From: Ziziphus jujuba
Lineage: Eukaryota > Streptophyta > Magnoliopsida > Rosales > Rhamnaceae
Assembly: GCF_031755915.1 (NCBI RefSeq)
Contig: NC_083389.1
Coordinates: 17,415,001 to 17,479,000, forward strand
Reading direction: 5' to 3'
DNA length: 64,000 nt
This document shows, one piece after another, positions 19,801 to 57,696 of this stretch. The position numbers were made by a program, and so were the translations under genes. The notes below the pieces were generated by a model. That model did no database searches, was not told the origin of the DNA, and saw only the letters and a program-made list of their open reading frames with translations. Numbering within the stretch: the first letter of the stretch is position 1; each line of letters opens with the position of its first letter.

Positions 19801-20197
19801 TAAACTTTACTTGCAATAATAATAAAGTCGGGCAATGCAATTATGTTACAACGCTTTAGATTAAATAATATTTTCTCATTCAATTCAAGAGTTGAAACGT
19901 GCTTAATGTCTCTCTTTCTGAATCTGTTTTAGGATTTATCATTTTAATTGCACTGTGATGGGAGACGAAACTTTTGTCCTGTTTCTACCAATTAAGCTTG
20001 AGTGACTTTTGTCAAACCTTTTATGATTTTGTTTTGTTGCCTTATTTTTGCTTCCTCTACTCTTTTAATAGCAAAATTATTGCTTTTTTAAATAATGATC
20101 ATCAATTTGATTCTTTTACTTTCAAATCTACTTAAATACATAATTTTTAAACAAAGGACCGAATTCCAAAACTCCTCAATTATTTTTATGAAATTAT
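16804..20197. other. AFC1 3' region and intergenic DNA
   Basis: The first 150-200 bases are probably AFC1 3' UTR. The rest shows no exon chain. A 115-codon + strand frame at 18,919-19,266 is Phe/Leu/Ile-rich low complexity and is not credible as a gene. A pure T run lies near 17,805-17,832 and again at 18,118-18,131. Confidence 0.5.
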
Positions 20198-20793
20198 CAT
20201 ATTAATTCTCCATTTACAAGTATGATCCATATTTGGGGATTCATTCCATTTGAGTTGAAAACACTTCAAATGGAATTGAAGATCTTTTAGCCCATAATTG
20301 GGAGTCATCTTATCTATATGTTGAGAAGATGGTGAATTATGAAACTTTATTTACAGTGAACTATGGAAGACAATAGGCTATGCCCTTCTCAGTGAGGAGA
20401 GAGTCCGTATTGCAAAGCAAAGAAAGCGACATATCCAATTTTATTTTATTTACACATCTAATTTTATAATTTTATTTTACTTTTTTTGGTGAATAAGCTA
20501 CAGATTTAATTTAGTACAAAAGGCTGCAATAGATTTTCCTTCACTTTCAGGATAAGCGTAGGCCATCTAATGAGGAGTAGGCTAAACAGGAAACGAATAT
20601 ATTGAGCAGGTATTTGTATATATATATATATATATGTATATATATTTTGTACATTTTGAGGTTGAAATAGAGAAAAAGGACAAGTATTAGCACGGAGTTT
20701 ACTGTAAATAGAATAATTATTAGGCCCACGGTTGCGATGCACGATAACAACACCAAAAATGGTAGAAAAGTAAAAACGAATAATTGTATTTAG
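20198..20793. repeat. Dispersed duplication, copy 1 (partner 42,134-42,770)
   Basis: Shares ordered blocks with 42,134-42,770: CATATTAATTCTCCATTTAC, ATGTTGAGAA..ATAGTGAATTAT, CTACAATAGATTTTCCTTC, ACTTTCAGGATA..GTAGGCCA, an (AT)n block, then GAGGTTGAAATAGAGAAAAA and GGAATAATTATTAG. There are many substitutions and indels. No open frame is shared, so its nature is unknown. Confidence 0.7.
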
Positions 20794-21022: not shown

Positions 21023-21121
21023 TCCTTTAGTCTATATTATAAGCGAGAAGGACTCCTAAATTTTGGTCATGTTTTACTGTTCAAAATGGTTCCAAAACGA
21101 CTACTTTTGGTGCGTTTTGGC

Positions 21122-21378
21122 TTTTCTTTTCTCTGTTTTTTACTTTTTTTTTTTTTTACAATTTCATTTATCCAAATCTATCCTTTTTTTGTTTCATTTT
21201 ACAATAGTATGCCAAGGATAAAAACATCGTTAAAAACCTATACATAATAGTTTTCTTTTCTTTGTTTTTTACTTTTTTTTTTTTTTACAATTTTATTTAT
21301 CCAAATCTATCCTTTTTTTGTTTCATTTTACAATAGTATGCCAAGGATAAAAACATCGTTAAAAACCTATACATAATA
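21122..21378 (+). repeat. 129-bp tandem repeat, two units, near the Helitron 5' end
   Basis: Two copies of a segment with TTATTTATCC/CATTTATCC, ACAATAGTATGCCAAGGATA and AACATCGTTAAAAACCTATA, spaced about 129 bp apart. It is followed by CCGATGTTTTTACATAAAAA and another CATCGTTAAAAA (about 21,441). No coding potential was seen. Confidence 0.8.
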
Positions 21379-21728
21379 GCCGATGTTTTTACATAAAAAA
21401 GTCGGATTTTTTCCTTTTTCAACGACTGAATTCCAAAAACCATCGTTAAAAATTTATTTTTTATTTTTTATTTTTTTATTTTTAGTTCTTGCTGCCAAAA
21501 CGAGAACAAATTGAAGATCTAAGAAGAGAAAAAGAGTCAGCAGTGGACAAATGAAAGAAAGGGATAGGATATGATTATTTTCAGGTAAATTATCACATTT
21601 AGTTATTTATTTATTTTGATATCTATTTGCAAACATTATGGATTTTTATTATCAATTATCTATTTTGAAAATAATAATTATAATAATTAGTATAAAACAA
21701 TCTATGATTAATAACACTAACATTATTA

Positions 21729-22284
21729 CATATGTGAGATATAGTAAATTTTTTCACTTTAAATATTAAATAAATTTCTGTTAAATGGATTGGATTTTTT
21801 TGTTAATAAATAATATATTGGACTTACTCCAACTATTGCTTTGCATTAGCCTTTTATCTTTTATCTATTACGTTAATTAAAATCCTTGAATGTTCCATCA
21901 CATATTTGATCTTCAACAGTTGCCATACTGGTGAGATCCACATTTTATGCTTCTTTTTTTATTTTGCCATACAGGTGTCAGGGTTGTGGTATGGCATGCA
22001 TTGTGGTTATGATGACTTACAGTATGATAAGGATAGAGTTGGTGTACTTTATACAAAATTCTGGACTTCATTATTGTACTTCAGAAAAGACTTTGCCTTA
22101 CAATGTAAGTAAAGATTTTGATTTATATCCTTTAGTCAAAGCCTATTTCCTTGGTTTTCAGTATTTAAATGCCATTGGCTTTTTTTCTTTTCTATATATA
22201 TATATTTTTTTTTTGTTTTCAGCTTTTCTCTCCCCCTACTCTCTTTATCAATGACGACAAAGAACCTGAGGATTGTGTTATTCA
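21729..22284 (+). repeat. Helitron leader segment, copy A (partner 29,413-29,962)
   Basis: Near-identical to 29,413-29,962. It ends about 420 bp before the RPA start codon. It contains two exon-like pieces present in both copies: one ending CTTACAAT|GTAAGT (about 22,106) that encodes a Cys-bearing peptide (CGMACIVVMMTYSM), and one starting after TTTTCAG (about 22,223) that encodes LFSPPTLFINDDKEPEDCVI. The protein family is not recognised. It may be a promoter plus 5' leader shared by the two Helitron genes. Confidence 0.75.
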
Positions 22285-22703
22285 CTACAAAATTGGTAAC
22301 TTTAATTTTTTCCATTCCTTTGTCTTATTACTTAATTTCCTCATGCATTTCAATTCTTTTGTGAGTTCATGAATTTCATTGTCCATGGATCTTTGCATTT
22401 TTCATTGCTTTTGTGTGCACATGCATATGATTTATATTTCAGTTCTTCACCCAATATCACATATTGATATATGAAAAACCAACATGTATTTATGTTGGGG
22501 AAAAAAAACAGTAAAAAAAAAAAAAACAGAAAAAAAAAAGTAGTAGGAGAGCATGCAATCCCACAAGAGATCGTGATGGTCATTGTTTTTTTTCTCTCAG
22601 TCTAAAAAACAAATAAATAGTCAATGACTATGTCATCTATAATTTGGTTTATTTGATTCATAGTGATTTCATTTTATGTTTTTCTAAAATATAATATAGC
22701 AAA

Positions 22704-25700
22704 ATGGTTAGAGAAGTAAAGCTAATCAAGGATATTCAAGCTCAACAAAGAGGTTGGACAGTAAAAGTGGTGGTTATTGAGAAAGCAATGCCACGAGTTT
22801 CTAAATCAAGTCCAAACAAATATCAAAGGTTAATCTTAGCTGATGAAGAAGTAAGTTTGTTTTTATAATATATTTATTTTGTATAATTTGTTTCATATAT
22901 AACTCAATTTTAAGTCTCTTGTTTTTCTTATACAGGGTGATAAGATCCAGGCCACAATATATGGTGGAGACATCCACATCTTCCGAGACACACTCATAAT
23001 TGGGAAAAATTATTATATTTCTAATGCTTGGGTTAAAGAAATTGGTGCACAATATCAGATTGTTCAAAATAATTTGCAATGGACTATAAATGGTCGAACC
23101 ATTGTGGAAGAAGTGACTGGAGATTCAGAGATAATTGTGCCTGCTGTTTACAACTTTGTTCCGTTCTCACGACTACACACTTATATTGATTCTCTATCCC
23201 ACGTCGGTATGTTTGTCTATATAGTCAATTTGTTCGGCTATATTTTATAACTTTTCATTTATATTTAATTCATCATGTGGACAAATTTCTAATGATCTAT
23301 AACATTTTAATTAACTTTTGAATTTGTTTATCATCATATGTGATTGGAATAGCGATTGAAATCAAGCCAAAAAAGGAGATAATCACGAATGATGGCTTAG
23401 AGATTGTCCAAGAGATGACTTTGATGAATGATAAGTAAGTACTCCAAAAAAATAAAAATAATTATTAATTATTAAATAAGTTAATAAACATTTTTCTGAA
23501 TTTTGATTTTAATTTTATGGACAGTATGGATACTTTGATGCTCACCATGTAGAACCAATTTGTGAACAATGAATGTACTCAAATTTTGAATATTATGAAT
23601 AGAAAACCAATCATAATTGGATGTCGACTTAAAGTTAGCTCATATAATGGTATGTTTCCTTAATGACTACACTACAATTCATGTTATTTTTGAACAATTT
23701 TTATGTAATTAAAATAGTCAGCAATTTTCTAAATTAGTTTTTATTAATTCAATTTTTTACATGCATATTTGTATTATTTATATCATCATATAGGTATCTC
23801 GCTTTCAACCAAATCCTCCAGTTCATTTGTTATTGAACCGGGGATACCACAAGCAGCTGCTTTATCAATTTGGTAAACTAATATTGGAGTTTAAATTTAG
23901 AACAATTTTTCTTGTATAAAAAATAAAAATAGCAATAATTAATTTGAGCAATTACAGGTATAATGCTAATGCTGAAAAAGCCATGGACATAATATGTGGA
24001 AGGATTGGTCTTGAGACAAAGTCACTGTCTACACTTCCTTCTGCTGAGGACATCATTACCATTAAGATGATAGATAATCAACTTAATACGGTAAATTTCT
24101 TGACTATTATTTTGTTTATAATTATTAACAACTATAATATTAAGATATGTTTGTACTTTTCATTATGTAAACAGAGGAGAAGCTTTTGGATCAATGGTCA
24201 CATCAAAGTGACAAATTTGATTCAACCTTTTTGGTACTTAAGCTGTGAAAAATGCACAAAAGCAACTGGATATGAATTTGAACAGAGGTTTAACTGCTTG
24301 TATTGCAGACATGATCAAGTTAAAGCTATGCCAAGGTATGCATACAAATATTTGTTGTTATTATTATTATTATTATTGTTATTATCGTCCAATTATGCAA
24401 TCATCATTATATGATTGTAACTTACAACTACTGGGTTTTTTTCCCCATTAAAAACACACTAATTAATTATGCATGAAAAATTTATAATCAATGATATTAT
24501 ATTTTTCATCTCACGTGTGAAACATAAGATAAAGCTTTGATCTAAATGAATAGGACAAGAATAAAACAGAAAAAAGATATGATTATACCTTGCACTGATC
24601 GATTTGTACATTTGTTGAGCCCCATAGCAATCACCCCATTCTACAACTTTTGCTCATTTGTCAATATGCTGCATTTAAAAGCAAAAACAGGCTACATTAT
24701 GATTGAGGATCGTGCTTGCTAGCCAAAATAACAAGATTTGTTGCAAGAAAAACTCCACTGTCTTTTGAGTATTTTCGGATATTTAGTTGCCATAATAATT
24801 GAGATCCACAAAAATTAATAATTGAAATTAATCATCATTATTTGAAACTCAAAAATCAAACTTAAACAGAGATCGTGTTTAAGGATTGCAACACAAAACA
24901 AAGAAAAATAACAAAATGAGCCATTTTTTATGTTAAGCATGTTCATTAGGAATTTTTATTTATAGTTTAGTAAGCAAAATATAGAACTCCATAAATTTTT
25001 GTTCTCTAAATACTTAGCTTATCTTTGTCATATAGATTATTACTTCATCTACATTATTACTTCATCACCTTTTGTTGTAATACATTAGGTTAATGCCTCA
25101 ATCTTTGCCTCTACTCTCTCCACCCAGTGCCACTTCAATTTTGTATAATATGAAATACTTTATTCAATTATTGTATAAGACATTTCATATTATTTATTTT
25201 ATCATTAATTATAATCTCTAACTGGTAATTCTTCTTTTATTCAGGTGCCGAGTCATTGTTGATTTGATAGATGAGTCTTCATCATTGAATGCTACATTGT
25301 TCGGAAATCAAGCTGAAAAATTTCTTGGTTGCACTGCATATGAGTTGATGAATAAATCTGATGGGGTAATATAATTCGTTTCATATGTATTTGTGGAAAT
25401 GACTGGTTAGTTTTAACTTGTTCTTTGAAAAAACATATATAAATGATGTAAATGCTTATGTGAGTACTAACTGTGAATCTTTCTTTTTTTTAGGATTCTG
25501 TTAAAGATATTGAAAAAATTGCCACATTATCCAGTAGTCATAAGCTTCTAATTCAAGTTAAAGCATCTAAACATGAATATCGTGATATTACAAGATGGAA
25601 ATACACAATCCTTTCTGTTTGTGATACTATTTCAAAAGAAATCAACACATTAACACAAACAGATACTTCAAATGATGCTGAAGTTAGTCAAGTTTTAAAA

Positions 25701-26079
25701 ATTGTTGAAGAGCAAAGTGGAAAATCATTAGGCATAACTGAATTGAGAGGTATGAACATGTTTGATACATTATATCCTAAGTGAAATTACATGAGCTTTT
25801 ATTTAATGTTCTAATGCATATATATTGCAACTTTCAAAATCAGATATATCTGGAAGTGTTGACAATGCTAAGATAGAGCAAATGAGCAATGAAGATAAAG
25901 TCCTAGCTGATTTGGTTTCAAAGCCTACTGCAAGAAACAATGCAACAAAGAAACTAAAGCTGATGATTTCCAAAAGTGCAGGTGAGGCAGATCCAATAGC
26001 GCTGAATCTTGAAAGTTCTCATTTACAATTTGGTGAAGGGAGTAGGAAGCAGTTTGCCGAGCTTAAAGACAATGCTTAA
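22704..26079 (+). pseudogene. Helitron-borne RPA1-like single-strand DNA-binding protein, 10 exons, one in-frame stop
   Basis: Exons: 22,704-22,850; 22,936-23,206; 23,353-23,434; 23,525-23,649; 23,794-23,872; 23,958-24,090; 24,175-24,335; 25,245-25,365; 25,494-25,749; 25,844-26,079. All junctions are GT-AG and in phase, totalling 537 codons. The start MVREVKLIKDIQAQQRGWTV and the following segment form the first OB fold of plant RPA1-like proteins. YNFVPFSRLHTYID and the DTLMLTM region belong to the second. Exon 7 has a CxxC...CxxC zinc ribbon (CEKC, CLYC) typical of the C-terminal RPA1 fold. Codon 176 is TAG (23,550-23,552) where the family expects Trp in TLW, a TGG-to-TAG change. Plant Helitrons often carry such genes. 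Intron 7 is long (909 bp) and shows no clear insertion. Confidence 0.85.
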
Positions 26080-26858
26080 TTCGTTATCATGGGAACCATC
26101 TTTTTGTTAATGTGGACATGATAGATTACTATCAGTTCATAAGTAGATTATTATCAGTCTTTTGTGAATTTATAGCATATTTAGACTATACTGTGATAGT
26201 TACACTAATATTATTATTTTGTACATTGCAAGATGTAATAGAAATTGATTTAGGTATAACCTAATACATTTCTATTAAATCTTGCAATTTATCTTAGGAA
26301 GATAGCAATGATGCTAAGATAGATTCATCTATGACACAAGTATTTTATGACAACTTTTTGTTTAACGAAAGTAAAATAGTAATTATGAGTTTTTATGATT
26401 GTACTTATATTTCCTATGATCATTTTTTATTTTTTGTGTTTCTTTTAGTTAATATATAAATCCATGAATAAATTAAATTTCATGATAATGGACTAGAATC
26501 AAAATAAATTGTTTATGTTTTCATTAGTTTTAAAATTAATTTATTCTCACTAAATATCTAAAACATCTCAATATTGATTGGTGTATAAAAAACAAATAAA
26601 ATTGAAAGGATGAAGCTAGAATCTATTTACGAACAATAATGGTTTTTGCTTTTTCAAATTTTCTGCTTTTCTAGATTTTCTGTTCATCTAAGAGTTGGTG
26701 ATGCAACCTTGGTGCCTTTATCTAGAAAGTAATTCATTCTCAAAAGAGCGTGTCCATACCTAAAGATAAAAGACCTGTTTTAAGTATTCAAGTGGTGGAG
26801 GCTGATACATCGGACACCCATATATCGGATATTTTATATCGGACACCCATGTCTCGGA
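26080..26858. other. RPA gene 3' region with a second copy of Helitron 3' subterminal sequence
   Basis: The stretch 26,803-26,840 reads TGATACATCGGACACCCATA then TATCGGATATTTTATA. It matches 35,268-35,306 near the true Helitron 3' end with about three mismatches. No hairpin plus CTRR follows here. The left target duplication of the nested MITE is 26,851-26,858. Confidence 0.65.
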
Positions 26859-27543
26859 TATACCTGGCAATTCGGGTTGGTGGGTCGTGTTCGTGTCAAC
26901 CCGTTTAATAATCGTGTCAAAAATGCCTAACCCGAACACGACCCATTTATTAATCGTGTCAGGTACCTAAAACACTAACCCGACCTGTTTATAAATAGGT
27001 CAACACGACACGACCCGTTTAACACGATTATTTTAACGGGTCGTGTTGACCTATTAACCCGTTAACCTGAAATTGACCTATTAACCCGAAAACTAACCTA
27101 TTAACCCGTTAACCCGAAAATTAACCTATTAACCCGAAAATTTTTTTATTTTTTTTTATTTTTATGTTTTTGTTTTATTAAAGATGTATTTTTTGTTTTT
27201 AAAAAATTAGTAATAGAAAATTATTTTTATAAAATTTTTAATTTATAATATTTTTTAGTTATTAAATATTATACTAGTGATAAAATATTAATTTAAAATT
27301 AAATTTAAATGGGTTGTAATAGGTATATAATCGTGTCGAGTTGAAACTGACACGTTTAATAAAAGGGTCGTAACGGGTCAATTTCGAGTTAAACAGGTCA
27401 ACCCGAAAATGACACGATTAATAATCGTGTTAAACGGGTTGACCCGATTATGACCCGAACCCATTTATAATAAACTCAAACCCATTTATTCCGTGTCGTT
27501 TTCGAGTCGTGTTGCCGTGTCATGATCCAAATTGCCAGGTCTA
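26859..27543. mobile_element. Non-autonomous hAT-type MITE (685 bp) nested in the Helitron
   Basis: Flanked by the 8-bp direct repeat GTCTCGGA (26,851-26,858 and 27,544-27,551). Terminal inverted repeats are TATACCTGGCAATT (26,859-26,872) and AATTGCCAGGTCTA (27,530-27,543), with one mismatch. An 8-bp duplication with TA-starting inverted repeats fits the hAT superfamily. The interior is rich in inverted words such as TAATCGTGTC, GGGTCGTGTT and AACCCG, and has a central run of TTAACCCG-like units (about 27,053-27,140). It has no coding capacity. Removing it restores a continuous CCATGTCTCGGACACAACTTA junction with the minisatellite. Confidence 0.85.
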
Positions 27544-29240
27544 GTCTCGGACACAACTTAGCTCGGACAGACATCAGTTAGCTCGGCCAGACACAACTTA
27601 GCTCGAACAGACATAACTTAGCTCGGACAGACATCAGTTAGCTCGGCCAGACACAACTTAGCTCGGCCAGACACAAGGTAGCTCGGACAGACATCAGTTA
27701 GCTCGGCCAGACACAACTTAGCTCGGCCAGACATAAGTTAGCTCGGCCAGACATAAGCTAGCTCAGCCAGACACAACTTAGCTCGGCCAGACATCAGTTA
27801 GCTCGGCCAGACACAACTTAGCTCGGCCAGACATAAGTTAGCTCGGCCAGACACAACTTAGATCGGCCAGACATCAGTTAGCTCGGCCAGACACAACTTA
27901 GCTCGGCCAGACATCAGTTAACTCGGCCAGACACAACTTAGCTCGGCCAGACATAAGTTAGCTCGGCCAGACATCAGTTAGCTCGGCCACACATAAGTTA
28001 GCTCGGCCAGACACAACTTAGCTAGGCCAGACATCAGTTAGCTCGACCAAACACAACTTAGCTCGGCCAGACACAACTTAGCTCGGCCAGACATAAGTTA
28101 GATCGGCCAGACATCAGTTAGCTCGGCCAGACACAACTTAGCTCGGCCAGACATAAGTTAACTCGGCCAGACACAACTTAGCTCGGCCAGACACAACTTA
28201 GCTCGGCCAGACGTAAGTTAGCTAGGCCAGACACAACTTAGCTCGGCCAGACATAAGTTAGCTCGGCCAGACACAACTTAGCTCGGACAGACATCAGTTA
28301 GCTCGGCCAGACACAACTTAGCTCGGCCAAACACAAGGTAGCTCGGACAGACATCAGTTAGCTCGGCCAGACACAACTTAGCTCGGCCAGACATAAGTTA
28401 GCTCGGCCAGACACAACTTAGCTCGGACAGACATCAGTTAGCTCGGCCAGACACAACTTAGCTCGGCCAAACACAAGGTAGCTCGGACAGACATCAGTTA
28501 GCTCGGCCAGACACAACTTAGCTCGGCCAGACATAAGTTAGCTCGGCCAGACACAACTTAGCTTGGCTAGACATCAGTTAGCTCGGCCAGACACAACTTA
28601 GCTCGGCCAGACACAAGTTAGCTCGGCCAGACACAACTTAGATCGGCCAGACATCAGTTAGCTCGGTCAGACACAACTTAGCTCGGCCAGACATCAGTTA
28701 ACTCGGCCAGACACAACTTAGCTCGGCCAGATATAAGTTAGCTCGGCCAGACATCAGTTAGCTCGGCCAGACATAACTTAGCTCGACCACACATAAGTTA
28801 GCTCGGCTAGACACAACTTAGCTAGGCCAGACATTAGTTAGCTCGGCCAGACACAACTTAGCTCGGCCAGACATCAGTTAGCTCGGCCAGACACAACTTA
28901 GCTCGGCCAGACATCAGTTAGCTCGGCCAGACACAACTTAGCTCGGCCAGACATAAGTTAGCTCGGCCAGACATAAGTTAGCTCGGCCAGACATCAGTTA
29001 GCTCGGCCAGACACAACTTAGCTCAGCCAGACATAAGTTAGCTTGGCCAAACACAACTTAGATCGGCCAGACATCAGTTAGCTCGGCCAGACACAACTTA
29101 GCTCGGCCAGACACAACTTAGCTCGGCCAGACATTAGTTAGCTCGGCCAGATACAACTTAGCTCGGCCAGACATCAGTTAGCTCGGCCAGACACAACTTA
29201 GCTCGGCCAGACATAAGTTAGCTTGGCCAGACATCAGTTA
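27544..29240. repeat. 20-bp minisatellite, about 85 units
   Basis: From 27,561 to 29,240 there are 84 consecutive 20-bp units with no length change at all. Consensus is GCTCGGCCAGACACAACTTA, with second-half variants ACATCAGTTA, ACATAAGTTA and ACACAAGGTA. A partial unit at 27,544-27,560 forms the left end. Higher-order structure exists: 28,241-28,380 (7 units) is repeated exactly at 28,381-28,520. GC is about 50% in an otherwise AT-rich element, with a CpG in nearly every unit. All frames on both strands meet stops, so it is non-coding. Confidence 0.95.
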
Positions 29241-29321
29241 GTTTTGATCCAATATGTATCAAAAAATAAATGTAAAATGAAGAAATAATTTATGTTTTGA
29301 TGTGTATATAAATATGTGCAT

Positions 29322-29324
<3 letters not shown>

Positions 29325-29360
<36 letters not shown>
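29325..29360. repeat. (AT)n microsatellite
   Basis: Pure AT dinucleotides between the minisatellite and the second leader copy. Confidence 0.9.
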
Positions 29361-29363
<3 letters not shown>

Positions 29364-29412
29364 TTTCAAAGTAAATTAAAAAAAATATAAATATTTTTGT
29401 TGAATATTTTAC

Positions 29413-29962
29413 CATATGTGAGATGTAGTAAATTTTTTCACTTTAAATATTAAATAAATTTCTGTTAAATGGACTGGACTTTTTTGTTAATAAACAATGG
29501 ATTGGACTTACTCCAACTATTGCTTTGCATTAGCCTTTTATCTTTTATCTATTACGTTAATTAAAATCCTTGAATGTTCCATCACATATTTGATCTTCAA
29601 CAGTTGCCATACTGGTGAGATCCACATTTTATGCTTCTTTTTTTATTTTGCCATACAGGTGTCAGGGGTTGTGGTATGGCATGCATTATGGTTATGATGA
29701 CTTACAGTATGGTAAGGATAGAGTTGGTGTACTTTATACAAAATTCTGGACTTCATTATTGTACTTCAGAAAAGACTTTGCCTTACAATGTAAGTAAAGA
29801 TTTTGATTTATATCCTTTAGTCAAAGCCTATTTCCTTGGTTTTCAGTATTTAAATGCCATTGGCTTTTTTTCTTTTCTATTTTTTTTTTTTTGTTTTCAG
29901 CTTTTCTCTCCCCCTACTCTCTTTATCAATGACGACAAAGAACCTGAGGATTGTGTTATTCA
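29413..29962 (+). repeat. Helitron leader segment, copy B (partner 21,729-22,284)
   Basis: Second copy of the ~550-bp leader, ending about 240 bp before the Rep/helicase ATG. Unlike copy A, it lacks the ATATAT stretch in the T-rich part, and its last exon-like piece ends TTATTCAG|GTATTT, a good donor site. It differs from copy A at few positions, including one extra G in CAGGGGTTG (about 29,667). Confidence 0.75.
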
Positions 29963-30204
29963 GGTATTTATACATTTGGCCTCACTTTTTAGGTGTTTTT
30001 TTTTTAAATAAAGAATTAGCAAGTGTGGTTTTCTTTAAATAAAAAATAGAAAATTTTTTTTCTTTGCTGATGTCTCTGTAAACATTTTGTTTTTTAGGTG
30101 TTCGTTGTTGCTATAGCTTAAATTTGGCCTCACTTTTGTTTATTAGAGAGTTTGGTAAGCTTGTATATATTTTCAGTTCTAATTTATCATTGATAGGTGA
30201 GAGT

Positions 30205-33200
30205 ATGGAAAAACAAAAACAAGATCAACAAAAATATGATAGTATGTCAAATGCTAAAAGAGAAGAAAAAAATAAAAAACGAAGAGAGAAAAGGCTATTA
30301 CGTAATGAATTACTAAACATAAATGTTAGACGAGACCGTTTATTTTTGAAAACTTCATTTGTTGAATGTCACAGTAATAACATTGGAAATACATCTGAAG
30401 CAATGATAGGTGTTGATGAAGGAAGAAGAAAAGAAGATAATTTAGGAATAGAAAACACCTATTCTAAAAAGAGCAAGACAAATGGTATGCATATAAAAGA
30501 TAATGATAATTTAGTAATAGTTAATAAGGAAGAACAATTAAGAAAAAGAAGAGAAAGATATGCAAAAAAATCGAAAGGGAAAAAAAACTAATTAATAAGC
30601 AACAAACCAAAGAAGGAAATGCACATAATGAAGTGTTAAAAATTATATATTTAGGATCTTCATCAAATCAGGTTGGTATTAATGATGCAAAAAATTTACC
30701 CATTGGATATGTAACTAAGAGTGGCATAGTTAATGCACATTTGAAAAATCAAATTGAAAATGAGTCATTAATATCTAATAAAGGAACAAGTGTTTGTAAG
30801 AAAAGAAAGCAACGAAAAAACATTTTGAAAGAAATAGTTAGTAGTGTGCATGTTCTATCAAATCCTACATTTTGTAATCATTGCAATGCTAAAATATTAC
30901 AATATGAACCCAAGGGATTTTGTTGTTCAAATGGAGAAGTTTTATTGGTTCATAATAAAATGCCTATTGAGTTGTATGAATTATTTACTTTAGATGCTGA
31001 AGAAGCAAAAGAATTTAGAAAATATGTTAGAACCTACAATAATACATTTGCTTTCACTTCTTTTGATGTCAAATATGATAAACAACTTTGGATGAGAAAT
31101 AAAGGTATTTACACTTTTCGTGTACAAGGACAGGTCTATCATTACATAAATGAATTGTTACCTATGGATAAGCAACCATCATATCTACAATTATATTTTT
31201 ACGACACTGAACATGAGTTAGAAAATCGTCTTCGTTGTTCTAATTCAATGAATTTAATGTTGCTACAAAAAATAATCAATATTCTTTCTGTGAATCCTTA
31301 TGTAAAGTTTTTTCGAAGCTTGAAAGATATTGAAAATTTACAAAATTATTCTATTCATATCAAATCTGATGTCGGATTAGATCAGAGAGTGTATAATCTT
31401 CCCACTGCATCTCAAGTAGCTGCTATATGGATAGAAGATATGAATTCTGAAAATAGAAATCGTGAAATTGTTGTGTATAATCAAGCTGGATATAGTCATA
31501 AAATAGAATACTATTTTGGTTGTTATGATGCATTACAATATCCTTTGATATTTCCTTTTGGAGATGCTGGTTGGCATCAAGGAATAAAAAAAATTAACAA
31601 AAAAAAAAGACAATCATATTGTGAAGGTCAATTTTTAACCAATGTGACTGAAATGGATTCTGTTGTAGACATGCTTGATAAGGAAACAGAAGGTGTATTT
31701 TTTTTTTTTTTTTAAACAACAGAATTTATGTATGTATATATATTTTCAATAGTCCTGCTAACTTATCTTCTTTGCAATTTTTCTACAATGATGGGAATGA
31801 AGAAGAAAAGAAATAGCGTTTCATGTCGTGAGTATTATTCTTATAAGTTGCAAATTAGATCACTAAATGATTCGATGATTTTACATATAGGATGTCTTTT
31901 GCAACAATTTGTTGTAGATATGTATGTAAAATTAGAAACTTCTAGGCTTGATTATTTAAGAAAAAATCAAACTGAAATTCGTGCTGAATTGTATCAAGGA
32001 ATTATGGATAGTGTTGATGTTGGAGAAACTAGGGGCATAAAAGTTGGTCGAAGAATTATATTGCCTTCTACTTTTATCGGTGGTCCTAGAGATATGCGTA
32101 GAAGGTACATGGATGCAATGACTTTAGTTCAAATATTTGGAAAGCCAGATATTTTCCTTACTATGACATGCAATCCAAATTGGATAGAAATTAAACAAGA
32201 ATTGATAAAAAATGAGGAAGCACAAAATAGACCAGATTTAGTTTCACGTGTGTTTAAAGCTAAATTAGAAGAGTTGAAGAAAGATCTTTTTAAAGATGAA
32301 ATTTTTGGTTCAGTAGCTGCACATGTACATGTAATTGAATTTCAAAAAAGAGGTTTACCACATGCTCATATATTAATCATTTTAAAATCTAATTCAAAGT
32401 TACTATGTCCCGATATATTTGATAAGATTGTATGTGCTGAAATACCAAATAAGAATGATAATTTACATTTATTTTCTGCTGTAAAAAAACACATGATGCA
32501 TGGACCTTGTGGAAAATTTAATCCTAAAAACATATGTATGAAAAAAGATGGTACTTGTAAAAATAAATTTCCTATGTCATTTACATCAAAAACTGTTTTA
32601 GGGAAAAATTATTTTCCATTGTATAGAAGACGTGATGATGGTTGTAAAGTTAAGGTTAGAGGATCTATTCTAGATAATCGATGGGTGGTTCCTTACAATC
32701 CTTATATGCTTGCAAAGTTTGACTGCCACATAAATGTTGAAATATGTTCTACAATAAAGGCTATTAAATATTTATATAAATATATATACAAAGGACATGA
32801 TAAAGTTGCAATGAATATAAAGTCATTTAAAAATGATGAAGATATTGATGAAATACATAGTTTTCAGTCTGCTAGATGGATATCACCGCCTGAAGCGATG
32901 TGGAGAATTTATGGCTTTTCTTTAAATGAAATGCATCCACATGTAATGACATTACAAATTCATTTGGAAAATAAGCAAATGATGAGTTTCAAGAATTCTG
33001 TTAATTTACAATCTGTTGTGAATAATGATTTCTTTGCAAAAACTATGCTTACTGAATATTTTGTTATGAATCATGTAAATGTAAATAGTAGACAATTATT
33101 ATATAGGGAGTTTCCTGCACATTATATTTGGTCCTCCCAATTTAAAACTTGGAATATACGCAAACGGTGTGATGTTGTTGGTAGAATTGTAAATGTGAAT

Positions 33201-35114
33201 CCATTTGATCATGAGAGGTATTATCTAAGATTATTATTAAATCATGTTAGGGGAGCCACATCTTTTGATGATCTTAAATGTGTAAATGGTGTTCAATGCT
33301 TATCATATCGTGATGCAGCTTTGTTGCATGGTCTATTAGAATCTGATAATAGTTTTGAGTTATGCTTGGAGGAAGCATCTTTGTACCAAATGCCTTATAG
33401 TTTACGAAGGTTGTTTGCTACTTTATTAGTATATTGTAGTCCAAGTAATCCGAGAGATTTATGGATTAAATATGAGAAAGCATTATCTGATGATTTTAAA
33501 TATTTAAATTATAGTGATAAAGTTAAAAGATCAAAAGTTTTAGGACATATTAACATTATCCTGGAATCAATGGGAAAAACTTTAGCTGATTATGATCTTT
33601 TGGAATTTGACATTGATGACAATGATATTCATGATGATAATAGAGAAATTAGTGAGGAATTATCGATTGTTATAAATGATGATGATATTGCATGTGCACA
33701 ATCTTTAAATATTGAACAAAAATATGCATACGATCAAATATTAGATAAAGTGTTCTCTAAAGTACGTGGTTTGTTTTTCATTGATGGCCCTGGTGGAAGT
33801 GGAAAAACTTTCTTATATAAAACAATTCTTGCTGCTGTTAGATCAAAAGGTTTAATTGCCCTTGCTACAGCATCTTCAGGAGTTGCAGCTTCCATTTTAC
33901 CTGGTGGAAGAAGAGCTCATTCCAGGTTTAAAATACCTTTAGTGATGGAAGAACATAATACATGTCATGTTAGTAAACAATCAGGATTAGCGAAACTTAT
34001 GAAAGATGCAAGTTTAATAGTATGGGATGAAGCTCCGATGGTAAAAAAGGAAGCAAGTGAATCATTAGATAAGATGTTACAAGATATAAATGAATGTGAT
34101 TTGTTATTTGGTGGTAAAGTAGTTGTTTTTGGTGGGGATTTTAGACAAGTTCTTCCTGTAGTTCCAAAAGGTACTAGAGAAGAAGTTATAAATTCATCTT
34201 TAGTTAATTCATATTTATGGCCAAAATTATATAAAATAAAATTAAGTCAAAATATGCGAGCTCAATTTGATCCTTTATTTATTCAATATTTGTTACGCAT
34301 TGGTGATGGAGTTGAAGAATATATTCATGATGATTATATTAAATTGCCATGTCAAATGATTGTTCCAAATGTTGATAAAGAAGATGCATTGGATAACTTA
34401 ATTAAACATGTATTTCTTGAAATTGAAAAGTGTGCTGAAAACTTAGATTTTATGATAAATAGAGCTATTTTAACACCTAAAAATGATTATGTGGATCAAA
34501 TTAATAATGTCTTAATAAATAGATTTGTAGGTGATACAATAACATATTATAGTTATGATGAATGTTTAGATAAAAGTTAACAAGATATTCATGAAGATTT
34601 CTTGAATATGTTAGTGCCTAATGGATTTCCTCCACATGAATTAAGATTAAAAGTAAATTGTCCAGTTATGCTATTAAGGAATATTAATCCTTCTGAAGGG
34701 CTATGCAATGGAACAAGATTAATTTGTCGTAGATTTGATCAAAATGTGATAGATGCTGAAATTAGTGTTGGAGAATATCGAGAAAAAAGAGTTTTCTTAC
34801 CTAGAATTCCATTTATGCCAATAGAGAATGTAAAAGATGTCTTACATTTTAAACGTAAACAATTTCCAATACGATTATGTTTTGCAATGACAATTAATAA
34901 AGCTCAAAGACAAACATTAGACTATATTGGTGTATATTTACTGCAACCAGTTTTTTCTCATGGTCAGTTATATGTGGCTTTGTCTAGAGCAAAGATGCGA
35001 CAATGTATAAAAATTTTGAATATTATGCCTTCAATAGATGAATTAGATTATACATTGACCAAAAATGTTGTATTTCATGAATTGTTGAGTTTAGTAAATT
35101 CTTCAAATAGGTAA
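30205..35114 (+). pseudogene. Helitron Rep/PIF1-type helicase, frameshifted and with one internal stop
   Basis: Starts at ATG 30,205 (MEKQKQDQQKYDSMSNAKRE), a Lys/Arg-rich N-terminus. The frame must shift in the A run near 30,563-30,569 to continue as KKLINKQQTKEGN. A short intron 31,695-31,802 (GT-AG, phase 0) joins ETEG to KKRNSVSCREYY. The Helitron Rep domain has FQKRGLPHAHIL (HUH His pair, about 32,340-32,375) and KYLYKYIYKG with the paired Tyr (about 32,765-32,795). The SF1B helicase has GPGGSGKT (33,786-33,809), WDEAPM (about 34,023), GGDFRQVLPV and SQNMRA. Codon 34,578-34,580 is TAA where the frame otherwise continues as QDIHEDFLN to 35,114. The late motif reads KAQRQT where KSQGQT is usual. 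The Rep nicks and joins DNA ends for rolling-circle transposition and the helicase unwinds. As written, the gene cannot make a full protein. Confidence 0.9.
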
Positions 35115-35501
35115 GCTCAATGTATGTTACTTATATTATTGATGTTATTTTTATTTATTTATTTATTTTAAATTTTCTGGTCATTTTTTATATATTTGAA
35201 ATCATGCTTTTGAACATATATGATTGTTTTGTTTTTTTAGGGATTGAGGTCAATTCCATTAGAATATATATGATACATCGGACATCCATACACCGGATAT
35301 TTTATGATGCGATTTGGATATTAAATTTATGAAAAACTTGGGATAAAATGATTAATTTCTTTATGTTTGTTAATAATTTAAGATTAAATCCTTCTAAACA
35401 AATTGAAAAATGTTAATTAAAAAAACTAATTTAACAATTTTTTTATTCAAACTTTTCCATATTACTTCAAAGCTATTAAACATTCAAATTTTAATCCAAA
35501 T

Positions 35502-35529
35502 CACGTGCATCGCACGTGGCCATACCTAG
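35502..35529 (+). terminator. Helitron 3' terminus: hairpin plus CTAG
   Basis: Perfect 7-bp stem CACGTGC/GCACGTG with loop ATC, then GGCATACC-like tail (GCCATAC) and CTAG. This is the transposition terminator, not a transcription terminator. The hairpin arms also contain the G-box word CACGTG. Confidence 0.9.
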
Positions 35530-36021: not shown

Positions 36022-37921
36022 CTGGGCCGGAATGTGTTTAAGGATTATGAAGAATTAAAAAGTAAAATGGAGAATAAGTTGCAAAGCTGGAAAACAAAGC
36101 TCTTGTCTCAAGCAAGGAAAGTAACCTTAAATAAGTCAGTTACAAGCAATATTTCCATCTACACCATGTCTGTAGTGAAATTTCCTAAACGGTGGTGTAA
36201 GGATATCGAAAGCAAAGCGTTCAATTTCATTTGAAATGGAGGGAGGTCGAATCAAAGGCTGATTCCAATTTCTTGGTTGAGATGTGTTTATCAAAATATG
36301 CTGGAGGTTTAGGAATAAGGAGGCTTAAGGATATTAATTCTGCCCTCCTTAGTAAGTTAAGTTGGTATCTCGCAATAGAGTCTGATCGTTTGTGGTCTCA
36401 AGCTTTAAAATCAAAATATTTTGCCAGTACCACCTTCTTGCGATGTCCATGGAAGAAGCATGCTTCATGGACTTGGAAAAGTATCCTTCAGTCAAGGCAT
36501 CTTATCCTTAAGGGGCTCTGCTATCGGGTGGGGAGAGGAGACAAAATGAACATCTAGGAAGATCCTTGGATCCTTTTCAATCCAAATTTTAAGTCCAGTT
36601 CTTCAGATCTGAGTTTTAGAGTTTGTGGTATAGTTGAATCCTTAAGACTGCCAAATGGAGGGTGGAATGAGGAACGGTTACAGATGTTTGACAATAGCAC
36701 TGCAACCAATATCCGCAGGATTCCCATTACTAGCCGGCTTCTTGAGGATAAGCTAGTTTGGGTGGGCAATAACAATAGTAGCTTCTTAGTGAAATCTACC
36801 CACAAGCTGGGTTTCTGGAATAATGTCCAAGCATCACCTTGGTGGCAGTTACTGTGGAACTCAGGAGTACATGAATGTTTAAAGGTTTTTATATGGAAGC
36901 TTGCTAACCATGGGATTCTCACCGCCGATAATCTGATTGCTAGAAACATCAGGGTAGTTCAGGCATTTTGTGTTCATGGGTGCAATTGTCTTGAGTCTGC
37001 AAACCATTTGTTTTTTCATTGGCAGGTGGCCAAGGCAATCTGGTTTGTCATGCCTTTAAAGTATAAAATGGGATGCCTTCATAGATTTTTCCTTGAAAGA
37101 GAAATTATACCTCTTAGGCCACCCGATTGGAGTTCTCCCGGTGCATCCGAATGACGGAGCACACTTTTTCCTATTTGGATCTATCATTCTTCACCAGTTA
37201 TGGCAAATTAGAAATAGCTTATGTTTTGAAAACCAGCGTTTCTCATTAGAGAATACTATGGCTCTGCTTAATTTTAGAGTTAAGGAGGCTTTAACTCTCT
37301 TTCAATGAAAAACAGAAATTATATCAATTTGAGACACAATGCTTGCTTGGATAGCCTTAAAATTCCTCCTCAGTTGATCAGAATCAATATGGATGCAGCG
37401 ATCAAAAATGGCAGCAGCTTAGTTGGCATTGTTGCTTGTAGCCATGAAGGAGAAATATTGAAGATGTGAGCTATCCCTTTTCACTCAGACATTCCAAAGC
37501 TTGCTGAAGCCTTTGGTATTCTGCAAGGGCTTGTAAAAGAAAAACAGGAAGGGTGGACTAATATTTGGTGTGTTTTAGATGCCAGGAGAATCATTCTTAG
37601 GCTGCATAGTGATGACTTGCAGGGCACGCATTGGATGGCAGAAAGTATTATTCAAGACATTTTGATGGAGAAAAATACTTTTCACGAAGTCATCTTCCAT
37701 TGGTCTCCCAAGGAATCATATATTATTGCAGATTTTGTTTGTAACTAGTGCATTAGGAATGGAATTTCTGGTGTAGTGGATGAAAGTATTCTTCCTAATG
37801 TATTTTTGTCCTTAGTTTCCTAGGAATGTGGTTTTTAAACCACCTCTTTTTTTGTAAGCTCTTTGTAGCTTTTCTGGGTTTTGGTTTCAATACACGTTTC
37901 TTTAGCCAAAAAAAAGAAAAA
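36022..37921 (+). mobile_element. 5'-truncated LINE (plant L1-type) with RT tail, zf-RVT and RNase H remnants
   Basis: Flanked by the 16-bp target duplication GATATGTTTGTTTTTT (36,006-36,021 and 37,922-37,937). It ends in an A-rich tail (about 37,907-37,921). Coding order on the + strand is the end of the reverse transcriptase (KLQSWKTKLLSQARKVTLNK, then GGLGIRRLKDINSALLSKLS), the zf-RVT region (FLVKSTHKLGF, WQLLWNSGVHECLKVFIWKL, NHLFFHWQVAKAIW) and an RNase H-like tail (RINMDAAIKNGSSLVGIVA, then HWSPKESYIIADFV). Several frameshifts and stops break it (for example 36,232-36,234 and 36,555-36,557). The endonuclease and most of the RT are missing, as expected from incomplete reverse transcription. 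Confidence 0.9.
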
Positions 37922-40900: not shown

Positions 40901-42133
40901 ACATGTAAAGAAAAAAAAAATTCATAAGAATCACTTTAAAAAAGGAAAAATTGGTTAGAGAAAAATAGAAATGAAATTTTATGATATTCATGTAATTAAT
41001 TAGAAAAAATTCATAGTTTATAGTTTTTTCTTCTTCTTTTCATTTTTTATGTACAGTCAATAATTTTTTTTATTTTTTTATTTATATTATGAAGGGTAGG
41101 TAATGACCGATGGATAGTATACTCCAAAAATGTAAGAATAATAATGGGGTGGTGTGGGATGGAGATTCACTAAATGAATCTAAAGCATAAATGAAACATG
41201 ACAAGAAACCTATTTTTCCACATTTTTTCAGAAAAATAATATTCAATATTTTTTTAAAAAATAAAATTAGTTTATAAATATAAAATATATATTTTTACTA
41301 ATAAGTATTTCAAAGTATAAATATAAAGTATAACCAAATTTAAATAAACATATATACACAGTAGGAAGTACGTTTCCGATCTCATCTAGTCCCCATCTTG
41401 GATTTGTCTGTCTCATAGGGGCGGATACTTGAGGGTTACCATCCTTATGGGATTATTAGAGTTTTTTTCAATTGCAAATGAATTGTAAAATAACTTATGA
41501 GATAATTAAATTATATTCATTTTTAAAGTTTTAAAACTTAGAATTTTTTAAACAAATATTTCCATTTTTTACTTAAAAATCAATGAAAGTCATTAGTTTA
41601 AAAAATCAATAAAATCATTGAACATTTTAAATACCATATTAGTTTTATAAATTTATAAAAAAATTTAGTTGAATACTTTTTAATTTTTATAGGTTTTTAA
41701 AAAGTCATTTAAATCTATATTAAATATCTTAAACTTTTATAAAATTTTTAAAAGTTTGAATTAAATATCATATAACTTTTGAATTTTATAAAAATCAATT
41801 AAAATATCAATCAAATACGTCCCCTAAATCAAGTATTGATATACGGATCTTTCGGTTTTAGTTACAAGTTTAAATCATTAAATTTGAATATGTATTCTTC
41901 AAAATTTTGGATTTTTTGAGGCTGAACGACCACTAGACTTTTGCAATTTTTTTATGTACCACTTTTATAGGAATCTTTCACTTCCAAATAAAAAAAGAAT
42001 GAGGACTCTCATATGTAATTCTATTTCCATTATTCACATTTGAATGTGCATGTTTACATGACTTTCAAACGGGGAATTACATGATTTTCAAACAGAAGAA
42101 TGATATCCAAAAGTCTTATTTTTAAGGAAGTAC
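37938..42133. other. Intergenic AT-rich DNA with faded segmental repeats
   Basis: No exon chain is visible. An 83-codon minus-strand frame at 38,275-38,526 is Ser/Leu-rich and overlaps a GA run (38,461-38,480), and is not credible. Repeated themes occur: a GGATCTAA..GGTAAAAGAA..AATTAAT segment near 38,965-39,000 recurs near 43,021-43,050 and, weakly, 38,756-38,790. TTTTAATTTTCTTGT.. with a nearby CTTCTTCAT occurs near 39,317-39,350 and again in altered form near 43,170-43,210. Confidence 0.45.
41866..42030. repeat. Imperfect duplication, copy 1 (partner about 43,257-43,500)
   Basis: Shares ACAAGTTTAAATCATTAAA, TTGGATTTTT(T)GAG(G/A)CTGAAC, GACTTTTGCAA/GGCTTTTGCAA, TAGGAATCTT(T/C)CACT and CATATGT with 43,257-43,500. 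The partner holds an internal duplication of the GGATTTTTGAG part and an (AT)n insertion. Confidence 0.6.
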
Positions 42134-42770
42134 CATATTAATTCTCCATTTACAATTATGATTCATATTTGGGTATTCATTCTAATATATTTGGGATTTA
42201 TCTTTTCTATATGTTGAGAACATAGTGAATTATAAAACTTTAGTTATATTGAATTATGGAAGACAAAAATATTAAGCCGTATTGAATGAGAAGAGCCTCC
42301 TCGTAATTATTAATTGAAACTCGATTACATGGAGTTTGATCTTTATGTCAAGACAAAGAAAGCTAGCTACATGTCTAATTAGCACCAAATGCTACAATAG
42401 ATTTCCCTTCACTTTCAGGATATATGTAGGCCACCTAATTAAGTAGGTAAAAAAATTGATCAATTTGAGTGGACATAATATATATATATATATATACATG
42501 TATAAGAAAATTTTCTTCCCAGGAATAGAGCTTAAGAGAGGCACATCTCCAACATGTCGCAGACTATTTTAGATTCCATTCCCTCCCATAACCACGGGAC
42601 TAGACATATATATATATATATATTCAGGTTGAAATAGAGAAAAAACACTAGTATGAATACCGAAATTACCGCAAATGGAATAATTATTAGACCCAAATTT
42701 CTACCACAAAGACCAACGGTATGAAAAAAATAAATAAATAAATAAAGAAAAGTAGAAAACAAAATATTTA
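42134..42770. repeat. Dispersed duplication, copy 2 (partner 20,198-20,793)
   Basis: Same block order as 20,198-20,793, with two (AT)n tracts (about 42,479-42,495 and 42,606-42,623). The 93-codon minus-strand frame here is not conserved in the partner, so it is unlikely to be a gene. Confidence 0.7.
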
Positions 42771-57540: not shown

Positions 57541-57653
57541 TTCTTCCAGTCATTATAAGCACGTCGTCGTTTGGACATATTCCAAGGGTTTTGAACCCTC
57601 CTCCCCCATTATACCCTCCCCTTTTGCACACCAACAGGGTTTTAGACCTATCC

Positions 57654-57657
<4 letters not shown>

Positions 57658-57692
<35 letters not shown>
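57658..57692 (+). repeat. (CT)n tract in the SG1 5' leader
   Basis: A 35-nt pure CT run ends 4 bases before the ATG in a good initiation context (AACCATGG). Such pyrimidine patches are frequent near plant transcription starts, but one this close to the start codon is probably within the 5' UTR. Confidence 0.9.

Positions 57693-57696
<4 letters not shown>

Follow-up and report, generated by a model that had tools for sequence, protein, structure and literature searches.

A Composite Helitron of Ziziphus jujuba, Probably Assembled from Parts of Several Helitron Elements

Introduction

Excerpts of published papers describe several Helitron arrangements in which RPA and RepHel genes, or entire elements, lie together. 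In rice, Mothra and a sister family comprise an RPA-only Helitron beside relatives of ∼15 kb that carry RPA and RepHel, with termini in common (PMC4683698). In maize, an RPA remnant precedes Rep in ZmhelA1 and RPA follows the helicase in ZmhelB (PMC3288121), and Helitrons are found adjacent head to tail, for which Myotis is cited likewise (PMC2267711). The FoHelis of Fusarium include composite, nested, and multi-5' forms (PMC5148889), and read-through by Helraiser, from Myotis, takes downstream DNA along, in 11.7% of events when the element is intact and in at least 36% when it lacks the hairpin (PMC4778049). That Helitrons can bypass a terminator, form circles, and undergo self-insertion was known before, from experiments and scattered cases. 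In titles and abstract openings of the open-licence literature, Helitrons of composite or nested form turned up for Fusarium and maize, but neither a jujube composite nor an order switch of the kind described below did.

Results

The window, i.e. the whole stretch of 64,000 nucleotides of Z. jujuba DNA that was analysed, contains a composite Helitron of 14,507 bp (21023-35529, plus strand) lying between an A (21022) and a T (35530). Its ends were set by flank divergence in other copies, which placed them where the preliminary description had seen a fit to the Helitron rule (TC after an A, CTAG before a T). At the 5' end, likeness begins at TCCTTTAG (21023), and the flanks before it differ among the window and the nine loci compared; A precedes it in nine of them and T in the tenth (C1_36.56). 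Several of the 10 flanks are TA-rich. An alternative 5' end at 21031 (TCTATATTATAAGC) was ruled out, as TCCTTTAG (21023-21030) is common to all 10 loci and the flanks are unlike before it. When the first 300 bases were compared with the genome, 40 of the 43 matches listed began at query base 1 (40 of 109 candidates scored), which alone does not set the boundary because the query itself begins at 21023.

At the 3' end, a hairpin (CACGTGCATCGCACGTG, 35502-35518) is followed by CTAG (35526-35529), and the flanks part directly after it in the window and five copies. Other copies end with CTAG (C1_32.26) or TTAG (C10_21.10), with T next in both, C5_3.62 has lost its final 3' bases, and T follows directly in the window and the seven copies with a readable end. 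Folded as DNA, the hairpin has −7.6 kcal/mol, which none of 200 shuffles equalled. These features are those of a Helitron: TC at the 5' end (21023) and CTRR at the 3' end, here CTAG; a hairpin 10-12 bp from the 3' end, here of 17 bases and stopping 11 bases short of it; and insertion without target duplication at a site with A or T on the left and T on the right, although many of the sites are TA repeats, which could mask a duplication. The 3' terminal 231 bp (35299-35529, plus strand), which include the hairpin and CTAG, are common to RPA-only and RepHel-first elements; in a search with the 3' terminus, 15 of the 40 matches listed (40 of 135 candidates scored) reach query base 1, 24 begin at base 39 (35299), and one at base 28. 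From its ends and copies alone, we infer that the composite would move by rolling circle.

Two genes lie between these ends. The first (22704-26079, plus strand) is RPA70-like and has introns, with DUF223 and Rep_fac-A_C domains detected in pieces spliced by eye; its exon limits were likewise set by eye, and there is a stop inside it at 23550-23552. Jujube RPA gene models are 71-96% alike to it. The second, RepHel (30205-35114, plus strand), combines an HUH endonuclease with a PIF1-type helicase, as indicated by Helitron_like_N and PIF1 domains (PF14214, 1.7e-59; PF05970, 1.3e-69; PF21530, 4.3e-19). GLPHAH and YLYKYIYKG are read in its frame, and we take these to be the motifs of an HUH nuclease with two tyrosines. 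RepHel has a probable intron near 31695-31800 and a stop at 34578-34580, and its frame is interrupted at a run of A near 30585. An RPA70-like gene within the same ends as RepHel, as here, characterizes plant RPA-bearing Helitrons, and with both genes broken the window copy does not qualify as autonomous.

The preliminary description had left other copies of the composite to be sought, and at least 12 composite loci, the window among them, were found on nine contigs (C1, C4, C5, C6, C7, C9, C10, C11, and C12). Eight, counting the window, are complete in gene modules; in one, RepHel is mostly gone, and the three others, of which a part was read, include C7_7.18, where no RPA coding module was seen. 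All eight complete loci keep the module order of the window copy, RPA first and Rep/helicase second, as stated earlier, and the outer ends and order are common to the window and seven further loci, plus one locus with an internal deletion. The composite is therefore an amplified family. All data come from one assembly, and an assembly artefact, or chance neighbors that were never mobile as one, might be invoked; we consider this close to negligible, because the 12 loci lie on nine contigs and the nine composites read (as 18-kb regions or in the window) show identical modules between unrelated flanks. No relative of the composite was found among viral contigs. Three contigs of a bacterial MAG collection matched and were left out of the evidence.

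Each gene is preceded by a copy of the same leader, a duplication that had been noticed earlier and that holds at 96.7% identity across 568 columns (21719-22284 vs 29403-29962). Leader A, 5' of RPA (21719-22284, plus strand), lacks the first ∼160 bases present in leader B, 5' of RepHel (29243-29962, plus strand). Leader B abuts RepHel's own upstream sequence (29963-30204, plus strand) at joint 3 (29962/29963), with TTCA on both sides. Because this 4-base microhomology and its spacing are identical in the 11 composites possessing the RepHel start, the joint probably has a single origin. Leader copies in the genome number 40 among the matches listed; 18 of 19 non-composite leaders continue into RPA upstream sequence (18 examined), and jujube gene model P0122 reads leader-RPA-leader. 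RepHel's own upstream sequence also lies directly 5' of RepHel in four non-composite loci, and no leader was seen within 1.5 kb upstream of RepHel in any of the four non-composite RepHel loci read. The leader was thus originally that of the RPA unit, with TTCA as the point at which RepHel became attached to it. Neither the composite A leaders nor the composite B leaders form a clade (two changes each) in a leader tree that is poorly resolved: 20 of the 35 inner branches are open, the bootstrap is unsettled, and only the window subfamily has good support. A captured host gene, considered as a source of the leader, was not found: the two protein matches of the leader peptide are both jujube RPA models, in a search limited to candidates between 0.55 and 1.75 times 426 residues. 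The peptide matched no Pfam family and gave three weak matches only against the PDB.

Separate RPA-only Helitrons with their own ends, which the preliminary description had suspected, are present in the same genome. One of them, C3_20.99, was read end to end, its RPA being partial, and the ends were located in C11_16.85, C8_12.24, and C2_7.53. Their layout runs from a 5' end named alpha through the leader, RPA, and a minisatellite to the same 3' terminus as the composite's, with a 3' subterminal segment preceding the minisatellite and 3' end. Alpha is the 5' end of five RPA-only elements, and the 3' end is rightly placed for four of these five among the matches listed. A shared order in full copies together with an absence of separate units would have spoken against a fusion, as had been recognized; the eight full copies do share the order, but separate units exist for RPA. 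RepHel was found at 17 loci (≥94% across the whole query), comprising 11 composites, five RepHel-first loci, and one without leader; no stand-alone leader-RepHel element was seen among these 17. The leader follows RepHel in the five RepHel-first loci, a count that like that of the composites is a lower bound, and RPA sequence was seen beyond it in four; RepHel-first elements lie, among other places, at C1:31.23, C6:28.10, and C5:28.51 Mb. Fused gene models of other dicots are likewise RepHel-first (8 of 8), and the window and the mapped composites, with RPA first, depart from this order of their relatives. One might still take RPA first for the ancestral order of the family, with the leader copied by local tandem duplication within one element. 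Gene order by itself proves nothing, for excerpts of PMC3288121 show that in plant Helitrons RPA may either precede or follow RepHel. The RepHel-first relatives in the same genome and in the dicot models, the separate RPA-only elements, and the remnants of inner ends described below make this very improbable.

The interval between the genes retains traces of a joint. In the window, the 54 bases at 26805-26858 (plus strand) are left over from the 3' subterminal region of the RPA unit, matching the sequence from 35269 onward, and the two 3' subterminal segments reported before were borne out (26801 vs 35269, 31 of 36 bases alike). A 685-bp MITE (26859-27543) is an insertion in the window copy and outside the composite proper; it is presumably hAT-like, by its 8-base target duplication (GTCTCGGA, 26851-26858 and 27544-27551), and its site is unbroken in six of eight other mapped composites, the exact pattern not being found in the remaining two. 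Next comes a 20-base minisatellite (27550-29241, plus strand), which Tandem Repeats Finder reads as a 40-base double unit repeated ∼42 times and whose arrays differ in length among composites and RPA-only elements. Three older composites, read in part (C10_3.54, C12_4.38, and C7_7.18), have kept inner-end remnants at the joint: alpha sequence lies between minisatellite and leader B in all three, and two also retain ∼60 bp that in C1_25.67, an RPA-only element, come after the minisatellite. 

These remnants bear on a single-family alternative, in which a head-to-tail dimer or circle of a RepHel-first element was cut and trimmed. A RepHel-RPA dimer so trimmed would yield RPA and then RepHel, Helitron circles are known (PMC4778049, in excerpt), and the 3' terminus is common to RPA-only, RepHel-first, and composite elements. 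Nevertheless, the leader ahead of RepHel is not its own (0 of the 4 non-composite loci), and the inner joint bears alpha, with which RPA-only elements begin, so that we regard such a permutation as unlikely. It overlaps with a fusion of units. Alpha could turn out to be the 5' end of RepHel-first elements, which would favor permutation of one element.

The outer 5' segment (21023-21718, plus strand), which contains a 129-bp tandem repeat (21122-21379), has another source. The same segment stands alone at C9_17.47 as a short non-autonomous Helitron, H1, ending in CTAG before a T. Its hairpin is absent in the window and kept inside five other composites, there without its CTAG end. On the strength of this match, the outer 5' end (∼710 bp) derives from H1, a third Helitron. 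The H1 joints vary among composites, some having 710 bp and the hairpin and others about 120-160 bp, so that more than one event is needed to account for the 5' end. For five copies, the reading of CTGA as the native 3' end of H1 was dropped, because RPA-only units carry GATACTGATTTGATCC as sequence of their own. In C2_7.53, an H1-like 3' end lies 4 bp ahead of the alpha 5' end.

Taken together, these findings suggest, with a probability of roughly 0.75, that at least three Helitron elements of a single host genome contributed parts to the composite, which was subsequently amplified as a whole. The preliminary description had proposed two units fused head to tail; fusion under one outer pair of ends is supported by the RPA-only elements, the RepHel-before-RPA loci, and the inner-end remnants in three composites, but a third Helitron, H1, has to be added, and RepHel brought no leader of its own. 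A left RPA-only unit would have been joined head to tail to a right unit in which the alpha region is followed by leader and RepHel, with loss of the inner termini, and H1 would provide the outer 5' end. Such fusions may have arisen during rolling-circle replication, by terminator bypass or by strand switching on a head-to-tail circle or dimer. Read-through of the first terminator, the route suggested earlier, is plausible; no composite showed the terminator that belonged to the RPA unit, H1's hairpin in five composites being the only one still inside, and deletion or strand switching therefore explains the joint equally. Movement would be as in Helitrons generally, RepHel nicking at the 5' TC, one strand being peeled off, transfer halting at the 3' hairpin and CTAG, and insertion occurring between A and T. 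The leader may comprise promoter and 5' UTR, which would place RepHel under RPA's control.

Discussion

One jujube genome retains the parts (H1, RPA-only, and RepHel-first elements), half-way forms with joint remnants, and the amplified product, and the steps of the fusion are thereby readable. We offer tentatively, and with more doubt than belief, a wider reading in which Helitrons consist of modular parts: a semi-autonomous element with RPA only would have regained a transposase gene via one rolling-circle strand switch, set it under the RPA leader, gained its new 5' end by bypassing the terminator of a short non-autonomous Helitron, and then outnumbered its parent (12 vs 5 loci, both lower bounds). 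If the fusion itself is read correctly, a Helitron lineage that loses RepHel would not necessarily have reached a dead end, and the composite would exemplify, in nature, the placing of a transposase gene behind another gene's leader.

Excerpts of the papers introduced above allow comparison with known systems. As in Mothra, an RPA-only element exists alongside RPA plus RepHel elements with shared termini; the excerpt explains RPA-only Mothra by RepHel loss and describes no re-fusion, order switch, or duplicated leader (PMC4683698). ZmhelA1 and ZmhelB are, like the composite, two-gene plant Helitrons of 12-15 kb, but their two orders belong to different families, and no leader copy before both genes appears in the passages available (PMC3288121). 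The adjacent maize Helitrons show a possible starting point for fusion, comparable with the H1-like end in C2_7.53, although their inner ends are intact and the excerpt contains no account of the pair moving jointly (PMC2267711). Helraiser shares the 3' hairpin as terminator, whose bypass carries downstream DNA, yet it is a reconstructed bat element in human cells, and the DNA taken along is a marker or host sequence rather than a second Helitron's genes (PMC4778049). Finally, the FoHelis show self-insertion, loss of inner ends, and composites under one outer pair of ends, with several 5' ends and one 3' end; they differ in being fungal and non-canonical, and the excerpted text reports among them no order-switched fusion of RPA and RepHel units (PMC5148889).

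The composite is a Helitron that exists in multiple copies with common outer ends

Both ends of the 14,507-bp composite were exactly as proposed in the preliminary description (21023 and 35529, forward strand), since they coincide with the points at which flanks diverge in other copies. Similarity between the window and nine fetched loci begins at TCCTTTAG (21023), preceded by differing, often TA-rich flanks, and likeness between copies ends after CTAG at 35529, where the next base is T. Judging by these ends and by its RepHel gene (HUH endonuclease plus PIF1-type helicase), the composite is a Helitron, and the whole element, from 21023 to 35529, should transpose as a single unit. Its copies, which have common outer ends but sit between different flanks, indicate that it has done so. 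When genome G000 (393.8 Mb, 14 contigs), in which the window is C11:17415001-17479000, was searched, the 5' 300 bp gave at least 43 matches and the 3' 269 bp at least 40, which are lower bounds because 40 candidates were scored in each case, out of 109 and 135, respectively. The RepHel frame is 96-98% identical to the predicted Ziziphus jujuba proteins P0001, P0002, P0015, and P0017 over 43-70% of the query, and the leader peptide matches two jujube RPA gene models, one of which (P0122) has the order leader-RPA-leader; these matches point to a jujube-like host.

Nine 18-kb regions, chosen behind strong 5' matches, were fetched. Seven contain every gene module in the window order: C1_36.56, C1_32.26, C6_7.16, C9_8.07, C5_3.62 (3' tip missing), C1_0.59 (part of the post-RPA stretch absent), and C4_25.40 (RPA interrupted by a 2.7-kb insertion). 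C10_21.10 has the same order but has lost most of RepHel and a portion of leader B, and C9_17.47 is short and carries neither gene. Three further composites of another subtype (C10_3.53, C12_4.37, and C7_7.18) were partly read, with no RPA coding module seen in the part of C7_7.18 covered. Other copies of the composite, which the preliminary description proposed to look for, do exist: there are at least 12 composite loci, window included, across nine contigs, and the RepHel search recovers all except C10_21.10. In the eight mapped copies, RepHel shares 98.5-98.7% identity with the window module (C10_21.10 being partial), which suggests a recent, undated spread.

In the window copy, both genes are disrupted. 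Its RPA has a stop at 23550-23552, which is absent from all 11 of the other copies in which this site can be read. In the window RepHel, there is a frame break near 30585 in an A run whose length varies among copies, and a stop (34578-34580) that is also in C10_21.10 and absent in seven others. In the part of the gene compared, RepHel stops or frame shifts occur in 6/8 mapped copies; none were found in C1_32.26 and C5_3.62 within the stretches compared, which is not a claim that either is a working copy.

RPA-only and RepHel-first elements

The leader search of G000, with 40 of 84 candidates scored, listed 67 rows comprising leader copies and AT-rich pieces. There are at least 40 leader copies, 21 inside composites and 19 outside. 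All 18 of the latter that were followed further, C1_5.70 among them, continue into RPA upstream sequence; four of these 18 loci are RepHel-first, and the RepHel search found no match near the other 14. Five RPA-only loci have a 5' end ∼960 bp before the leader, with variants of TCCTTTAGTCTATAATATAAATGAG (alpha). Separate RPA-only elements, anticipated in the preliminary description, do exist, since four of the five (C11_16.85, C8_12.24, C2_7.53, and C3_20.99) also have a 3' end listed at a fitting place, giving sizes of 4.2 to 7.7 kb as computed from end positions. RPA is partial in most RPA-only elements examined and nearly complete in C11_16.85; C3_20.99, the sole one of the four read gap-free, has the last part alone. 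C2_7.53 (L037) is two Helitrons in tandem: at ∼490-545, an H1-like 3' end (...GGGCCGAACCTAG) is followed by TATA (4 bases) and then the alpha 5' end.

Among the 120 RepHel homologues listed, out of 5023 found, eight also have an RPA-type domain, in every case with RepHel first. Similarly, five RepHel loci in G000 lie 6.4-14.4 kb upstream of a same-strand leader (C6_28.1, C7_13.4, C1_31.2, C5_28.5, and C5_13.27), and RPA upstream sequence follows the leader in all four examined for it. In C1_31.2, the only one of the five read further (with gaps), the beginning of RepHel and its end part precede a leader, RPA, the post-RPA stretch, and the shared 3' terminus. Its RepHel match ends at module base 4574 of 4908, so that the locus is evidence for the gene order but not for a functional element. 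The 1.5 kb before RepHel, read in C1_31.2, C6_28.1, C5_28.5, and a further RepHel locus, C5_7.41, includes repeats of about 300 bp and contains no leader in any of the four. RepHel relatives (34-41% identity) are also encoded on three contigs filed as bacterial MAGs (L001, L002, and L003), probably eukaryotic contamination.

Joints between the units

The strongest evidence for fusion is the inner-end remnants at the joint between the RPA and RepHel units. In the window and 7/8 mapped composites, the minisatellite directly abuts the leader; the eighth, C9_8.07, gave no match to the exact search pattern. In C10_3.54 and C12_4.38, the ∼60 bp after the minisatellite match the first post-minisatellite bases of RPA-only C1_25.67, followed by alpha from base 185, and in C7_7.18 alpha is present from base 612. 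These remnants are what is left of an inner 3' part and an inner 5' part that have been lost.

At the leader B/RepHel joint, leader A reads GTTATTCA followed by CTAC, non-composite RepHel loci read AAGTTCA followed by GGTATTTATAC, and leader B reads GTTATTCA followed by GGTATTTATAC, with TTCA present on both sides. The distance from leader end to RepHel start is 242-245 bp in the 11 composites having RepHel's start, and this constancy argues for a single origin of the joint. The leader tree adds no proof: composite A leaders require two changes, as do composite B leaders, and support for most of its inner branches is weak. Leaders A and B of the window subfamily (the window, C1_36.56, and C10_21.10) group together (98/92), as expected if one had been copied onto the other.

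The outer 5' end belongs to H1, a short non-autonomous Helitron. C9_17.47 is a stand-alone H1: it has the common 5' end, a body of the same sequence that contains an insertion, and then ACACGTGCAAAACACGTGGGCCAAACCTAG followed by T. Five composites retain H1 body and hairpin, running directly into GATACTGATTTGATCC of the RPA unit, without H1's CTAG and the unit's first 960 bp. The window, C1_36.56, and C10_21.10 have lost the hairpin together with ∼160 bp at the start of leader A, and C1_32.26 has an inverted piece at this joint. C10_3.53 and C12_4.37 have about 120 bp of H1, then leader from base 354, as does C1_5.70, near which the RepHel search of G000 found no match; C7_7.18 has 162 bp, then leader from base 367. 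These differing joints therefore suggest that the composite 5' end has been exchanged or trimmed more than once. C6_7.16 (L018) and C9_8.07 (L023) start with an incomplete H1 5' segment, of 625 and 421 bp, respectively, which runs into a second, complete 5' end.

Other features

A 685-bp MITE at 26851-27551, with an 8-base duplication (GTCTCGGA) from which we take it to be hAT-like, is in the window copy only, the site being unbroken in six of eight other composites. Right of the Helitron, a zf-RVT (reverse-transcriptase-associated zinc-binding) domain (36558-37154, 6.5e-11) marks the remains of a LINE-type element. A fragmented dispersed repeat (20180-20728 and 42116-42695, 77-90% alike) has one copy immediately left of the Helitron. 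There are direct duplications at 1-1065/3048-4089 (94.1% alike) and 10276-11081/11084-11908 (95.9%), and a 365-aa open frame (57646-58743) presumably resembling a plastid TPR-repeat protein. Elsewhere in G000, six sites (C11:23.80, C10:6.61, C12:22.64, C9:9.93, C6:20.37, and C10:6.46 Mb) pair a divergent 5' end (87-88%, query 1-135) with a same-strand RepHel-type 3' end (96-98%) 3.7-6.5 kb away, probably representing a further non-autonomous family.

Comparison with known systems

In plants, RPA is on record on either side of RepHel (PMC3288121), and the order alone is therefore not new. Our search of open-licence literature found no order switch inside a single genome that still contains the parts and the intermediates. 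Fusion could have occurred by terminator bypass or by self-insertion with loss of the inner ends. Bypass is known from Helraiser (PMC4778049), where read-through occurred in about 11.7% of events for the intact element and in at least 36% when the hairpin was absent. For Fusarium, self-insertion accompanied by such a loss has been proposed, and the doubled 5' ends of C6_7.16 and C9_8.07 resemble the multiple 5' ends reported there (PMC5148889).
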